From an uncultured Cryomorphaceae bacterium (GTDB lineage Bacteria; Bacteroidota; Bacteroidia; Flavobacteriales; Schleiferiaceae): a stretch of DNA of 64,000 nt. The notes beneath the pieces were generated by a model that saw only the letters and a list, made by a program, of their open reading frames with translations, made no database searches and was not told the origin of the DNA. The translations under genes were made by a program, and so were the position numbers. The stretch lies in the NCBI GenBank assembly GCA_937120475.1, contig CAKZJV010000007.1, forward strand, positions 124,001 through 188,000, read 5' to 3'. This document shows, piece by piece, positions 13,582 through 20,352 of this stretch. Every line of letters starts with the position of its first letter. The first letter of the stretch is position 1.

Positions 13582-15300
13582 TTATTCCACCATCAGTTTT
13601 TCAATAACACGGTTGTTCAGGCGTAACAGGTAAACCCCGGATTTTAAAACATGTCTCACCATAGCTTCTTGTTCTCCACCGCGTAAAGTTTCACTTTGCA
13701 ATAGTTTACCGTTTAACGAAATTATCTCTAGCTTTACCTGTGGGGTGTTTTTGTAACTGCTTAGATTCAGTTTAAATGTACCGGAGTTGGGGTTAGGATA
13801 GAGAATAGAATTACTTTCTTGGAACTCTTGCAAAGAAGGTTTTTGTATGGTTGAAGTAGAGGTACCAGGAGGAGCAATGCGAGCCGAGATAAGTGTAGTA
13901 TCCACGTAGAAAAAAGGTGTATCAGCTTCGGTACAGATATTCTTGCTTATGAGATTGAGAAATTCTTCATCAGATTTCTCAAACGTTTCAAATTCAATTT
14001 CCTTTTCGTAGGATACAACTAGTTGGAAATTAGTGGACTTTGAATAAGTGTTAACCGGGACTTGATCAAAAATGCATAGGTCCGGATTGTATGGGTTCAT
14101 TATGAAAATTTCGGGAACATCCCTGTTTTGTGAACCTTTGGTAAATGGTACATCTGCTATTCCAACCAGCCCAATCTCACTGTCGTAATAAAACTCTCTC
14201 TTTATACCGCCATGATCGTCCAATGGAACATGTAACCAGGAATGTTTTACGTTTCCATTTGAAGCAAATACAATTACGGCAATCTGGTAATAATTATTGG
14301 GCGGGCTTCCTGGAGCTGCTTGTGTATTACCAATGAGGATGATATCATCAGAGTTTCCAGGTATAACATCCCATACATAAAGTTTTTTTCCATTTATGTC
14401 AATATCCTTTGACCAAACATTGTTAAGTGAATTCTCTAATCTGGTGATCCGAGCTATTGAATCAGTGTTACCGGCCATAATGAGGTCATCAGTTTCCGCA
14501 TCAAAGTAATTTGTGAAATAGTGAACCGATGAATTATCCAGGTAAAAGTTGGAGGTTGAGAGGCTGGGGTCAAAGATGTGTACCGTACTTTGATCATGGT
14601 TTGAAGCACCTGAGTAATTTGATACTCCGACTGCTGCAAATACTTCACTGAAAGTGGAATAAGCAAAATCATCCACCGCATTATATTTTCTGTATTCTCC
14701 AAAAGGAATAGAGGAGGTGCCGAAGAACTTTAACTGTGCTATCGTGCCAGATAAAGTCAATTGGGTGATGAGATGAAATGTAGAAGCCCAGTAACTACCG
14801 GGCCCTCCATATGTCCCTTGGTAAGTTTGGGTCAGGTATATACTGCCATCTACGATATTAATTCTAACAATGTCATCAAAATTTTGGGTACTATCAGAAT
14901 CATAAGTATGAGCCCAATTTACCTGTCCACTGAGATCCAAGCTGGCTAGGTAAAGGGATTTCTGGTCAAGGGCAGCTACCTGAGCCCCACAAATAAAAAT
15001 CTCACCATCGTAATAGGTAAGGTCGGAAGCATAAATCCCCCATGGCAGCCGGGTTGTGGATAGAGGGCTCCCGAATTTATCGGTAATAATCAGGAACGGG
15101 GCATGAAATATTCCCGATGCACCAAACCTTAAATCATACGTATAGCCCAATATGGCATGATTAGACTGTGGCAAGGCAATGACCTTTTTAGGGTAAATTG
15201 CAAATGAATCACAGTCAAGTGGAATGAGAGCTTTAGCAAGTTGTGTTTGAGCATTGGTTAAAAACGGTAAAAGGCAGAGTAGAAAGAGAAATTGTCGCAT
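13582..15300 (-). CDS. secreted protein with type A T9SS sorting domain
   Basis: A 572-aa cargo of the type IX secretion system. It has a Sec signal peptide (MRQFLFLLCLLPFLTNA, cut before QTQ), a long middle region of repeated short beta-strand units that look like a propeller or delta-60/SBBP-type repeats, and a C-terminal type A sorting domain (about 498-572). The sorting domain shows LYPNPNSGTFKLN, LEIISLNGKLLQSE and SGVYLLRLNN. I cannot assign an enzymatic activity. The gene is monocistronic with its own terminator. Its base composition is lower in GC than the neighbouring housekeeping genes, in line with other variable cargo genes in this window. Confidence 0.85.
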   Translation of the reverse strand: MRQFLFLLCLLPFLTNAQTQLAKALIPLDCDSFAIYPKKVIALPQSNHAILGYTYDLRFGASGIFHAPFLIITDKFGSPLSTTRLPWGIYASDLTYYDGEIFICGAQVAALDQKSLYLASLDLSGQVNWAHTYDSDSTQNFDDIVRINIVDGSIYLTQTYQGTYGGPGSYWASTFHLITQLTLSGTIAQLKFFGTSSIPFGEYRKYNAVDDFAYSTFSEVFAAVGVSNYSGASNHDQSTVHIFDPSLSTSNFYLDNSSVHYFTNYFDAETDDLIMAGNTDSIARITRLENSLNNVWSKDIDINGKKLYVWDVIPGNSDDIILIGNTQAAPGSPPNNYYQIAVIVFASNGNVKHSWLHVPLDDHGGIKREFYYDSEIGLVGIADVPFTKGSQNRDVPEIFIMNPYNPDLCIFDQVPVNTYSKSTNFQLVVSYEKEIEFETFEKSDEEFLNLISKNICTEADTPFFYVDTTLISARIAPPGTSTSTIQKPSLQEFQESNSILYPNPNSGTFKLNLSSYKNTPQVKLEIISLNGKLLQSETLRGGEQEAMVRHVLKSGVYLLRLNNRVIEKLMVE

Positions 15301-15953: not shown

Positions 15954-18845
15954 ATGATGAAAAGATTACACCTTCTTGGCCTGTTGCTCCTTTTGGTAGG
16001 GCTGAGTTTTAACGAATTGAGGGGACAAACGATTAATTTTACTACCCCACCATGGTCAACAGACCCTACGAACCCTGTAACTATTTGTCAATGCGATACT
16101 TTTGACATTCGCCCACCTAACAATACATCAATCAGTCATCAACGGGCTTTGCGATATTTTCTAAATCAAAACTTTAACCCGAACACGGAATTCTTCTTTG
16201 AATTTGCTGCTGGAGGTAATTTCCTTAATGCTGATACGCTTGAAGTAATTGATATAGTAAGGGTTGATGCCGGAAATGTGTACATACCGGATACTTTTTC
16301 GGGTCCAGCGCAACACTCGGCTTCAATTATAATTCCTTGTAATGCTACCTTGGGTTCTACATCGTTGAGAATAAGAAATTCAAACGGAACTATCAGTGAT
16401 ACCCTTTACTTTCTGGTAAATAGAATTCCTGACCCTACGCGAATTAAAAGCGTCATTGGAGGTTTCCCTAATCCCTATACCGTTGCTCTTAATGATTGGG
16501 GTTTTTGTGAAGGGGATTCTGTCATTTTAGAAGCCGAACAACAAACCGGTGCTAACTACCAATGGTTGAGAAACGGGGTGCCTATAGTTGGGGAAACGGA
16601 CACGATTTACGTGGTAAGAAGTTCGGGAATTTATGGGCTAAGAGTTGATCTTGGTGCTTGTTCAAGGGAATCCAGAGATACACTGATCAACGCCTTTAAA
16701 CCACCAACAAATATTGAGTTTATACCTAGTGCCAGGGCTTTTCAAATCGATAATCCGGATATTACCAATGTTTCGCGTGATGACTCGATCATGTTTTGTG
16801 AAAATGTTACGGTAACACTGGAGGCACCAATCCCGCCTCCACCTGGAGTTACCTTTTCGTATCAATGGTTAACCGATACGATTGACCCCAATAGTGGTAA
16901 CCCGGTTTTCTTTCCGGTGGATACTGTTTCGGCCGGTTTTCCCCGTTCAGACACCAGCCAAACGGTGGTTATCGATAGCAGCCTGATCTCCTTCAGAGGT
17001 GGTGTGGCCAACATTTACCTGGCCGTAGATGATGGCTTTTGTGTTGATACTTCCGACTTTCCCATCATACTATTTATGGATAGCGTACCTGAAACCAGGG
17101 TAGCCAATCGCTTATGGGCAGGTGGTGCTTTATTACCATCGGCATTCAACTCTGATGTATGTATGAAAGAAGATTCGTTGCAGTTGATATCTTCTTACGT
17201 AGCACCGAATATTCGCTATCAGTGGCAACGCTCCCTCAACGGTACTTCCTGGACTAATTTACCCAGTACCAGTAACCCGGATGAGGTAGGTACCCAAAGA
17301 GTTTTGGAAGTGGATACCGGTTATAACCCTAAACCAACACCCACCATTACCTATTACCGCTTACGCACCACTACGGTAACTCCGTTTAATGGCGATGTGG
17401 TATGCAGCTATACATCGGATAGTGTAAGGGTAAGGTGGTTGCCCGATTACCGGATTGAGGTGACTCCCGGCCAACCGCAGGCTACCTTTATTGCTCCTGA
17501 CACTGTAAGCCTTTGCGCCATTGACAGTGTACAAATAAGGGGACCGATAAGCCCCAACTCTTTTACCTTACCTTACGATTACTCCTGGTTTAAGGATACC
17601 GTGAATGCCATAGGGCAAACCGTAAAAACCCCTACCGGGCCCAACGATACCCTTCGCGCTCTTACGGTGGATCAAAGTGGTTCTTATTACATAGTTTTTG
17701 ATGATGGTATATGTATAGATACTTCCCGCGCCATTTACGTGTATGTGGATACGATACCCCGCACCAATTTGGTATCCAGGCCTTTTGCCGGTATTCCTCC
17801 GAAGCCCGACCCCTTCGACCGTTGTTTGTATGACTCCGTACAAATTACGGCTACCGATACGGTAATACCGGGATGGGATTATCAATGGCAGCAATATATT
17901 GATGGTACCATCGGTTGGATTGACCTGGCAGCCGATACCAACCCGTCTATTGTAGTAGATACCAGCTATACTCCAATACGTGATACCATGTATTTCCGTT
18001 TGGTGATCAATTACACCAACCGTTTTGGTTTGCCCGGTTGCGAATTTATTTCGGACAGCGTTCAGGTACGCTTTTATGAATTGCCCGAAGTAACCTTTTT
18101 CCCGAGCGATTCCGTAGGACTCTGTAGTGGAGAAGATGTAAGGGTAGTGGCCGAGGGTAACGCTCTGAGCTACCGATGGGCCGATGGACCCTTAGGAGCT
18201 TCGCGGGTATTTACCAATACCGGTACCTATACACTGATAGCGGTGGGTGTTAATAATTGCGAAAAAGAGTACGAGGTAGATATCTATGACATTACGGTGC
18301 AGGCCAATGCAGGTTCCGACCGAACCGTAGTTTCCGGTGAAGAAGTGAACCTCAGTGCTTCCGGAGGAACTTTTTACCGATGGTTTGCCAATAAACCGTT
18401 GGCCTTTAGCAATAATGAATCTCCCAATACGATAGTTGAAAAGGTATTGGAAGACGATGTGCTGGCCGATACGGTTATCGTGTATGTTACAGTTACCGGA
18501 GATGACGGTTGTTCTGATACCGATTCGCTCACCTTAGTAATTAATAGTGCTCGCGGCAAAGACCTGGTACTTCTGGAAAGAGCCTATAACCTGTTTACGC
18601 CCAACGGAGATACCCGAAACGATGTTTGGGATATCACAGATATTGTAAATGAAGCTACCGGGTGTGGCATTGTGATCATGAATCGCTGGGGTTCTACACT
18701 CTACGAAGAAGATGATTTTCAGGGTGTATGGGATGGTACTGACTCCGGTGGTAACCCACTCCCCGATGGTACCTATTATTATATTTTAACCTGTGACGAT
18801 GAAGTACTCCTGAAGAGTGCGGTAACTATAATCAGAAATGAATAA
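15954..18845 (+). CDS. large secreted protein with type B (CHU_C / gliding-associated) T9SS sorting domain
   Basis: A 963-aa surface or secreted protein. Signal peptide is residues 1-24 (MMKRLHLLGLLLLLVGL core). The body contains several Ig-like or PKD-like modules, each with a Tyr-x-Trp core (YQWLRNG, YQWLTDT, YQWQRSL, YSWFKDT, YQWQQYI), and paired cysteines. The C-terminal ~90 residues are a type B sorting domain: NLFTPNGDTRNDVW, IMNRWGSTLYE and DGTYYYIL. Type B cargos typically need a cognate PorP/SprF protein. Here one overlaps the stop codon by 8 nt, a strong sign of a functional pair. Probably an adhesin or surface polymer; the ligand is unknown. The first ~850 bp are more AT-rich than the rest. 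Confidence 0.9.
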   Translation: MMKRLHLLGLLLLLVGLSFNELRGQTINFTTPPWSTDPTNPVTICQCDTFDIRPPNNTSISHQRALRYFLNQNFNPNTEFFFEFAAGGNFLNADTLEVIDIVRVDAGNVYIPDTFSGPAQHSASIIIPCNATLGSTSLRIRNSNGTISDTLYFLVNRIPDPTRIKSVIGGFPNPYTVALNDWGFCEGDSVILEAEQQTGANYQWLRNGVPIVGETDTIYVVRSSGIYGLRVDLGACSRESRDTLINAFKPPTNIEFIPSARAFQIDNPDITNVSRDDSIMFCENVTVTLEAPIPPPPGVTFSYQWLTDTIDPNSGNPVFFPVDTVSAGFPRSDTSQTVVIDSSLISFRGGVANIYLAVDDGFCVDTSDFPIILFMDSVPETRVANRLWAGGALLPSAFNSDVCMKEDSLQLISSYVAPNIRYQWQRSLNGTSWTNLPSTSNPDEVGTQRVLEVDTGYNPKPTPTITYYRLRTTTVTPFNGDVVCSYTSDSVRVRWLPDYRIEVTPGQPQATFIAPDTVSLCAIDSVQIRGPISPNSFTLPYDYSWFKDTVNAIGQTVKTPTGPNDTLRALTVDQSGSYYIVFDDGICIDTSRAIYVYVDTIPRTNLVSRPFAGIPPKPDPFDRCLYDSVQITATDTVIPGWDYQWQQYIDGTIGWIDLAADTNPSIVVDTSYTPIRDTMYFRLVINYTNRFGLPGCEFISDSVQVRFYELPEVTFFPSDSVGLCSGEDVRVVAEGNALSYRWADGPLGASRVFTNTGTYTLIAVGVNNCEKEYEVDIYDITVQANAGSDRTVVSGEEVNLSASGGTFYRWFANKPLAFSNNESPNTIVEKVLEDDVLADTVIVYVTVTGDDGCSDTDSLTLVINSARGKDLVLLERAYNLFTPNGDTRNDVWDITDIVNEATGCGIVIMNRWGSTLYEEDDFQGVWDGTDSGGNPLPDGTYYYILTCDDEVLLKSAVTIIRNE

Positions 18846-20352
18846 GACCTTGACTATGAAAAAGCTAATCCTTTCAATAATCATCTTGGTAGCTGGTCTT
18901 CAGGTTAAGGCACAGCAAATACCACTTTACAGTAATTACTTTTTTACTCCGTATATCTACAACCCGGCCCAGAGCGGTAAGGAAGGTTCCACCGAACTTA
19001 CCCTATTGCACCGCAGGCAGTGGACCGATATACAGGGGGCACCGGAAACCTCGGCTTTGGCCATAAACGGTTCCCTTAACGAAGAGAAGGTAGGGTGGAG
19101 TGTTTACGGATATCGCGATGTAACCGACATCATTTCGCGAGTGGGTATTTACGGTAACTATGCTTACCGGGTAAACCTGGCGGATAATATTACGCTGGCC
19201 TTCGGTTTGGGGGCGGGTTACCTCAATAACCAGATCGATCAGAGTGCTATCCGTGCACGTGATGATGAAGCTATTATTACCGTTACTACCGATAACCGCG
19301 GCAATTTCGACCTGAATGCCGGTATTGATCTTGAGATTGGGAACTTCACCCTGGGTGCTGCGGCACCTCAACTGTTGGGGCAGTCTATCAAATACACTGA
19401 GAACACGGACCGACCGGTGAATTACAGTCTTTTGCGCCATTACGTGGCCACCGCCCGTTATGACTTTCCCTTTGAGGGTGATGACAATGTGCTTTCCCCC
19501 ATGGTTATGGTAAAAGCGGCCAGGAATGTACCTATACAGGTAGATGCCGGTTTACTCTTCAGTTTGAGAAATTTCGGTTATATAGGGGCTATGTACCGTT
19601 CGGAGTATGCCGTAACGGGTAATGTAGGTATTAACCTTACGGAGCAACTTACGCTGGGCTATGCTTACGATTTTTCACTTAGCGATTACTCCGCTGACCT
19701 GGGTACTTCCCACGAGTTTATGCTTACTTATCGCTTTGGTAGCGACAAGAAAAACGAGCGTCTTGAAAACGAGATCAAGCGTTTGAAACAACAGCAGCGC
19801 AGGCAAAAGGATGAAGTGGAGGAAATTGTAAACGAGCGTTTGGAAGAGTTTGAAGATCAATACAAACGGGATATTGAGAAAAAGGTGGATGAAGCCACCC
19901 AGGACGCACAGAACAACCAGAATAACCAGAGCGGTAATGCCACCGGTAATACCAATACCGGCAACACCGGAGGAAATAATACTGGTAACGCCAACAATGG
20001 TAACCCGCGCGGAAACAATACCGACCCTGCTAACAACAACCAGGGTAACTTTAACAACCAGCCCGGTGACGTACCAGGGTTCAATGCAGCCAACCAAGCT
20101 AATAATGTACAACCCGGTTCACAGGGTTATTACGTAACGGCCGGTGTGTTCAGTAGCCAGCAAAACGCTGAGAAAATGGTTCGTAAGCTAGGTAGCCAGG
20201 GCTTGAATGCCCGTTACTTCCAGGATCAGGGTAATTATTACTATTACGTATATCTCCTGAAGTTCAATAATTACCAGCAGGCCGATGCTGCCAAGAGCAG
20301 CGGATTGAATGGGTCTTACTCTGGTGACCTTTGGATTAAGATTGTGGAATAA
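18838..20352 (+). CDS. PorP/SprF-family T9SS outer-membrane protein fused to a SPOR domain
   Basis: A 504-aa fusion. After a signal peptide (MKKLILSIIILVAGLQVKA, from an alternative start at 18856), residues about 25-300 are a PorP/SprF beta-barrel. Its landmark is the opening QIPLYSNYFFTPYIYNPAQSG, and the following strands end in HEFMLTYRFG. Residues about 301-355 form a charged coiled coil. Residues about 358-424 are an Asn/Gly/Thr-rich linker. Residues about 428-504 are a SPOR domain (YYVTAGVFSSQQNAEKMV, then YYYYVYLLKF). PorP/SprF proteins help transport or retain type B cargos; SPOR domains bind peptidoglycan lacking stem peptides. Ordinary PorP proteins are ~300 aa and end after the barrel. 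The gene is coupled to its likely cargo gene upstream. Confidence 0.9.
   Translation: MNKTLTMKKLILSIIILVAGLQVKAQQIPLYSNYFFTPYIYNPAQSGKEGSTELTLLHRRQWTDIQGAPETSALAINGSLNEEKVGWSVYGYRDVTDIISRVGIYGNYAYRVNLADNITLAFGLGAGYLNNQIDQSAIRARDDEAIITVTTDNRGNFDLNAGIDLEIGNFTLGAAAPQLLGQSIKYTENTDRPVNYSLLRHYVATARYDFPFEGDDNVLSPMVMVKAARNVPIQVDAGLLFSLRNFGYIGAMYRSEYAVTGNVGINLTEQLTLGYAYDFSLSDYSADLGTSHEFMLTYRFGSDKKNERLENEIKRLKQQQRRQKDEVEEIVNERLEEFEDQYKRDIEKKVDEATQDAQNNQNNQSGNATGNTNTGNTGGNNTGNANNGNPRGNNTDPANNNQGNFNNQPGDVPGFNAANQANNVQPGSQGYYVTAGVFSSQQNAEKMVRKLGSQGLNARYFQDQGNYYYYVYLLKFNNYQQADAAKSSGLNGSYSGDLWIKIVE

Follow-up and report, generated by a model that had tools for sequence, protein, structure and literature searches.

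The PorP/SprF-SPOR Locus

The window analyzed here is a 64,000-nucleotide (nt) stretch of DNA from an uncultured Cryomorphaceae bacterium (GenBank assembly GCA_937120475.1, contig CAKZJV010000007.1, positions 124,001 to 188,000), and it carries a gene for a PorP/SprF-type beta-barrel fused to a SPOR domain (18838..20352, + strand). This gene lies directly behind one for a type B cargo protein of the type IX secretion system, T9SS (15954..18845, +). The fused protein is probably a type B shuttle with a wall anchor of its own, and the upstream gene is presumed to encode its dedicated cargo.

As first called, the fused protein has 504 amino acids (aa), and its conserved start is probably Met7 at 18856. 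The signal peptide counted from Met7 (18856..18912), delimited by eye from the sequence and from alignment A1, ends ahead of an invariant QQ. It is followed by the barrel (residues 26-302; 18913..19743), to which Pfam PorP_SprF (PF11751) is matched over its entire length (residues 24-298, E 2.3e-62, 211.4 bits against a cut-off of 22.3), as is TIGR03519 on residues 7-300 (1.5e-66, 224.9 bits against 90.55). Residues 303-357 are 58% charged and include a predicted helix that looks like a coiled coil by eye (residues 307-357; 19756..19908). The 69-residue linker behind it (residues 358-426; 19909..20115) consists of 62% Asn, Gly, and Thr, compared with 23% in the barrel, and is predicted to be disordered, with a predicted local distance difference test score (pLDDT) below 50 over residues 357-439. 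The protein ends in a SPOR domain (residues 428-504; 20119..20349), which Pfam SPOR (PF05036) matches on residues 428-487 (E 9.8e-08; 32.7 bits, cut-off 21). This order of barrel, coil, Asn/Gly/Thr-rich stretch, and SPOR domain is the one given in the initial annotation. A low-confidence full-length model (3 sequences, mean pLDDT 50) contains 14 strands over residues 50-301 and a helix at 307-360; after a disordered stretch it also shows the first five elements of the SPOR domain. The mature protein contains no cysteine. A sequence search of the PDB with the whole protein gave a best E of only 0.078; the nearest named relative found is in the metagenome-assembled genome (MAG) Owenweeksia sp. 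EAC74, with 78% identity over the protein, and a scan of the genome contigs for related loci returned two relatives.

The cargo protein (P0002) has 963 aa and matches CHU_C (6.9e-20) and TIGR04131 (3.1e-15, 56.1 bits against a cut-off of 35), the latter on the type B sorting domain at residues 879-961 (18588..18836, +).

Conservation and Pairing with Type B Cargo

With the whole fused protein as the query, both the barrel and the SPOR parts are matched in 56 of the 60 family genomes, a count that includes genomes with the parts on different contigs (G017, G032, and G046) or in two frames (G049). Identity is 45-79% for single-piece matches. The fusion is thus neither peculiar to one genome nor a product of chance. 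Four genomes (G005, G020, G036, and G059) lack the gene, of which G020 is just 70% complete. Among the 30 readable family proteins, two have a cysteine at residue 12, within the signal peptide, and no other cysteine occurs.

A type B gene lies directly upstream in all 31 family loci looked at; these include the window locus itself (L008), two loci of the same MAG (L006 and L009), and one frame shortened by a stop (L037). The distance between the two genes is -8 to +33 nt in the 30 readable loci and -47 nt for L037. The pairing extends beyond the family, as a cargo gene is found upstream in 73 of the 77 loci that encode a PorP with a SPOR and/or OmpA tail (hereafter PG-tailed) and have at least 400 nt of upstream sequence, and TIGR04131 matches 73/73 of these cargo proteins. 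Mapping SPOR-ended PorPs against type B cargo genes, a check that the initial annotation had suggested, thus strongly supports its claim of a dedicated cargo-shuttle pair. The cargo has some match in 59/60 family genomes at E 1e-10, a few in the sorting domain only. In the genomes that lack the shuttle gene, the cargo is absent (G059), weakly matched (G005, 2.1e-11; G020, 3.2e-12 and sorting domain only), or represented by a 462-aa piece (G036).

The initial annotation described the cargo gene as overlapping; its position directly upstream stands, but the 8-nt overlap exists only if the first ATG is used, and a start at Met7 leaves a gap of 10 nt. The relatives align to Met7, which is nearly invariant in alignment A1, and the closest relative (L009) also has a 10-nt gap between cargo and shuttle genes. 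Because the conserved start is Met7, the overlap was rejected as a sign of translational coupling.

PorP Proteins with Tails Across the Class

A profile built from 32 fused proteins was searched against 295 genomes of the class and matched 226 of them; among the best 150 matches, frames of at least 400 residues were taken, and those of 390, 393, and all shorter lengths were left aside. Tails were typed with profiles built in this analysis. Taken together, the loci L038-L178, from this and other searches, hold 148 PorP frames, of which 64 have a SPOR tail, 14 an OmpA tail, one both, and 15 other extensions, with 54 being plain. Of the 295 class genomes, at least 51 encode SPOR- or OmpA-tailed PorPs, the genome of the window excluded, and 42 do so when SPOR is required at E 1e-8 with the first profile. 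SPOR tails occur in 23 family codes (19 at the strict cut-off) and OmpA tails in 9, and all 15 OmpA tails were matched again on re-scanning with Pfam. Within the same order, fusions are also found by Pfam in family codes f2, f5, and f12 (the last at L043). A phylum search that scored 3 candidates per genome matched 36 of 395 genomes, and the four long frames outside the order comprise two with SPOR and two with OmpA. In light of these searches, the initial annotation goes too far in stating that PorP/SprF proteins usually stop at the barrel, and the idea that the fusion is a rare departure was rejected. Most likely, the shuttle belongs to a widespread subfamily whose periplasmic tails can be exchanged and which is undescribed in the literature as far as it was searched.

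Several further tail arrangements were seen. TPR repeat families are also matched in 7 of the 65 SPOR-typed PorPs of alignment A5, so that some tails include a TPR stretch in addition to the SPOR end. The 1250-aa PorP encoded at L106 (812-4564, - strand) has an OmpA domain and, terminally, a weak SPOR match (18.2 bits, cut-off 21). The PorPs of family code f80 (L060, L061, L124, L129, L130, L133, and L135-L137) have tails of about 100-140 residues and a cargo gene directly upstream; a Pfam scan of L060, L061, and L124 found no match in the tail. Tandem PorP genes occur at L075 and L098, where a SPOR-tailed PorP is followed by a second with a long tail, which at L075 has a weak likeness to CarboxypepD_reg (E 0.0035, below the cut-off) and at L098 has no match.

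PorE-Like Genes and the Barrel Tree

For comparison with the tailed PorPs, 40 loci with plain PorPs were added (28 at about every fourth row of a match listing, 9 hand-picked lower down, and 3 from the family itself), and the other 14 plain frames came along with loci fetched for different reasons. The next gene is PorE-like in none of the 71 PG-tailed loci with at least 1000 nt downstream, compared with 11/20 plain PorPs with cargo and 1/34 plain PorPs without cargo; a PorE-like gene cut by the end of a stretch could escape notice if little of it is present. At the strict SPOR cut-off the count is still 0/57, and by genus it is 0/35 for PG-tailed against 10/16 for plain cargo-linked PorPs. 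Fisher's test gives p = 3.5e-09 for 11/20 against 0/71 and 6.3e-07 by genus, both of which ignore descent. The window agrees with this pattern, as a separate TPR/propeller/OmpA lipoprotein gene is not present beside the shuttle gene. The genome of the window (3.65 Mb) itself offers the contrast: the plain PorP at L038 stands between a CHU_C-type cargo gene before it and a PorE-type gene (TPR-PD40-OmpA) after it, as found by Pfam, while at the window locus the tail takes the place of such a gene.

A quick tree was made from 140 of 155 barrels, with 15 near-copies dropped and the tails left out; the sampling favors barrels like the query. One clade of 78 (support 89, not starred) holds 75 of the 77 PG-tailed barrels, its other three members carrying other extensions. 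A second clade (support 92) consists of 13 plain barrels, of which 12 have cargo and 12 have PorE; a third (support 95) holds 30 plain barrels that lack cargo. The inner branches are in many cases weak (44/137 open). The presence or absence of a PG tail needs 5 changes on this tree, and the interchange of SPOR and OmpA needs at least 6 on the best tree, counted over 76 PG-tailed barrels. Therefore, the feature kept on this barrel clade seems to be a wall-binding type of domain rather than one particular domain.

GldN Tails and Cysteine Tails

The SPOR and OmpA domains are not the only ones found behind a PorP barrel. At L108 (2767-4146, - strand), a GldN domain (PF19841, 1.3e-09) takes this place, and seven full-length matches to GldN-tailed PorPs occur in 5 of the 36 genomes of the same genus, with the domain also present in the Pfam-checked loci L186-L189. 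A type B domain ends 46-142 nt upstream in 5/5 GldN-tailed loci looked at.

A cysteine within the last 30 residues is found in 1/79 PG-tailed PorPs, 2/20 plain PorPs with cargo, and 29/34 plain PorPs without cargo. In the plain cargo-less proteins (e.g., L040, L145, L154, L158, L160-L162, L171, L172, L174, and L175) the cysteines are often at -16 and -4, unlike the Cys-Xaa-Cys of SprF, and these proteins are possibly a second class of disulfide-linked barrels. An SprF-like disulfide to GldK was rejected for the window protein because its mature form has no cysteine.

Fold of the SPOR Domain and Glycan-Contact Residues of Studied Members

The SPOR domain alone is predicted to form strand-helix-strand-strand-helix-strand (mean pLDDT 64), which fits the beta-alpha-beta-beta-alpha-beta topology, although the model is weak. 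Its best fold match in the PDB is the SPOR domain of CwlC (1x60, E 2.4e-03), which is also the best hit of a sequence profile of 28 tails (1.5e-08). According to excerpts of PMC6895207, a glutamine in beta-1 contacts the glycan in RlpA (Q270), its counterparts Q251 in FtsN and Q351 in DamX matter for septal localization, and the key tryptophan of DamX is in beta-4. A beta-4 tryptophan is kept in all 89 PorP tails aligned at that place. The contact glutamine is a feature of the studied SPOR members and not a Pfam criterion. Other SPOR matches in the same genome, compared by eye, have isoleucine at its place in L179, L182, and L183 and glutamine in L184; therefore, its replacement may be usual among the SPOR domains of this group.

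Other Genes of the Window and the Genome

The next open reading frame downstream of the shuttle gene is on the opposite strand. At 13582-15300 (- strand) the window also encodes a protein of 572 aa that looks secreted and, by eye, ends in 80 residues similar to a T9SS type A sorting domain. In all, five PorPs are encoded in the genome, and only the shuttle has a long open frame (506 compared with 328-370). Of the others besides L038, the PorP at L039 precedes FGE-sulfatase-type (GldK-like), GldL, GldM, and GldN genes, and that at L040 has an FGE-sulfatase-type gene, a C25 peptidase gene (PorU-like), and PorV as neighbors, both by Pfam; the PorP at L041 comes after a large cargo gene, as read from the sequence. 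The FGE-sulfatase-type gene at L040 is presumably GldJ-like by its position. A further protein of this genome (L182, contig C7 near 1592634) is not a PorP but resembles an outer-membrane barrel with a coiled coil and SPOR domain, the barrel and the coil being judged by eye.

A Probable Type B Shuttle and its Proposed Wall Anchor

We consider it about two-thirds probable that the PorP/SprF-SPOR protein serves as a dedicated shuttle for T9SS type B cargo and brings its own wall anchor, so that by itself it would do the job of PorP and PorE of Porphyromonas. In the mechanism proposed, the barrel would take the upstream-encoded 963-aa cargo from the T9SS translocon and would hold it on the surface by the C-terminal domain of the cargo. 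The C-terminus of the barrel would face the periplasm, and the charged helix and flexible linker would bring the SPOR domain to peptidoglycan, fixing the complex in place and keeping the cargo static. One chain would then unite the roles of PorP and of the separate OmpA-type anchor PorE. The self-anchored transporter suggested by the initial annotation gains indirect support from the missing PorE-like neighbors, the interchange of SPOR and OmpA, and the lack of cysteines; the absent contact glutamine and a PorE contrast that may reflect descent leave that claim qualified.

A number of observations weigh against this reading. The contact glutamine is found in 0/95 PorP-SPOR tails (92 distinct), where its place is taken by Val in 63, Thr in 20, and Ile in 12. 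The structure models are weak (mean pLDDT 50 for the full length and 64 for SPOR alone), and in the fold search PII-like ferredoxin folds follow CwlC from 1.5e-02, some with slightly higher TM-scores. Pfam SPOR reaches just 39 of the 65 SPOR-typed tails at E 4e-4, which is about its cut-off, with the remaining 26 resting on our own profile; the stricter recount was therefore made. There is no cargo gene upstream in the tailed loci L043, L064, L112, and L131 despite enough upstream sequence. Finally, the PorE contrast is not established as independent of descent because only 3 independent pairs can be formed (p = 1).

The same data bear on other explanations of the tail. The SPOR domain might serve as a septal address: if it bound stem-less glycan at division sites and nothing else, the cargo would be delivered to or enriched at the septum or new poles instead of being tethered all over the cell. 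Studied SPOR domains recognize denuded glycan enriched at the septal ring, as described in portions of PMC6895207, and the SPOR-bearing shuttle is kept in nearly all family genomes. Such an address is nonetheless unlikely, as SPOR is swapped with OmpA-type domains inside one barrel clade and the canonical contact residue is absent from every tail. OmpA domains are not known to be specific to the septum. About equally unlikely is a SPOR domain that binds no glycan and acts as a protein-protein module, docking for instance to a component of the T9SS, the track, or a wall enzyme. The missing glutamine is compatible with docking, and so are the TPR stretches in a minority of the SPOR-typed proteins, TPR repeats usually being docking modules. 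Barrels of the same clade in one genus carry the GldN domain in place of SPOR, and GldN is a component of the T9SS ring or track in the part of PMC12635249 consulted. Docking is opposed by the identity of the commonest other identified tail, which is OmpA (14 loci and the one with both). OmpA is a peptidoglycan-binding family. The beta-4 tryptophan kept in every aligned tail likewise weighs against docking; DamX has a key tryptophan in beta-4 (PMC6895207, excerpts).

A protein that is mainly an OmpA-like structural tether between outer membrane and wall, its cargo handling being secondary or lost, would find a parallel in the non-PorP protein at L182. This is the least probable of the alternatives, and indeed very improbable, given the pairing with type B cargo across many families, the near co-absence of shuttle and cargo genes within the family, and the PorP profile match over the entire barrel. 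A broader proposal, which we advance tentatively and regard as less likely than not, is that the periplasmic tail of PorP/SprF proteins is an interchangeable address that sets the destination of the cargo. SPOR and OmpA tails would fix the cargo at the wall, SPOR perhaps where division has stripped the glycan. GldN or cysteine tails would couple it to the gliding track or the moving T9SS ring, and plain barrels would depend on a separate PorE. The addresses would have been swapped on one barrel scaffold, with the window gene being the SPOR version.

What keeps type B T9SS proteins on the surface, and why some are static and others mobile, is an active question. The natural fusion of a shuttle to a domain of a wall-binding type, together with similar fusions to OmpA and GldN in one barrel clade, suggests that the tail sets the destination of the cargo.

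Comparison with Known Systems

No description of a SPOR- or OmpA-tailed PorP fusion was found among the titles, abstract openings, and paper excerpts searched, subscription papers, preprints, and domain-architecture databases lying outside the search. By word search, the available text of the T9SS papers PMC12635249, PMC9143113, PMC10202324, and PMC10994853 contains no mention of SPOR; that of PMC12618676 has two words starting with "spor", the one visible being a sporulation reference. The subfamily, seen in 23 family codes (19 by the strict count), is unmentioned in the portions of T9SS literature examined, which name neither SPOR- nor OmpA-tailed PorPs.

The small SPOR domain behind a disordered linker is shared with FtsN, DamX, and RlpA, which, in the sections of PMC6895207 consulted, are held by a membrane helix or lipid anchor, whereas the shuttle has a beta-barrel and lacks the contact glutamine. 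SprF of Flavobacterium johnsoniae is likewise a PorP/SprF barrel whose periplasmic C-terminal tail fixes the attachment of the cargo, as the shuttle tail would. According to excerpts of PMC12635249, the SprF tail is short, its Cys-Xaa-Cys cysteines bond to GldK, and the protein moves on the gliding track; in contrast, the shuttle has no cysteine and a long tail that ends in SPOR. Five operons of F. johnsoniae combine PorE-like, type B, and SprF-like genes, and for these a static, wall-anchored cargo complex has been proposed (PMC12618676, in part), which is what we envisage for the window locus. Those operons have three genes with the anchor unfused, while the window locus has two with the anchor fused. 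The closest counterpart in the role proposed is the complex of PorP, PorE, and the cargo PG1035 in Porphyromonas gingivalis, which is thought to be wall-anchored (PMC9143113, excerpts). There, type B cargo on a PorP barrel is tied to peptidoglycan by another domain, as would be the case for the shuttle; in P. gingivalis a lipoprotein of its own, bearing an OmpA-type domain, is the anchor, and in the window protein it would be a SPOR domain fused to the barrel itself.

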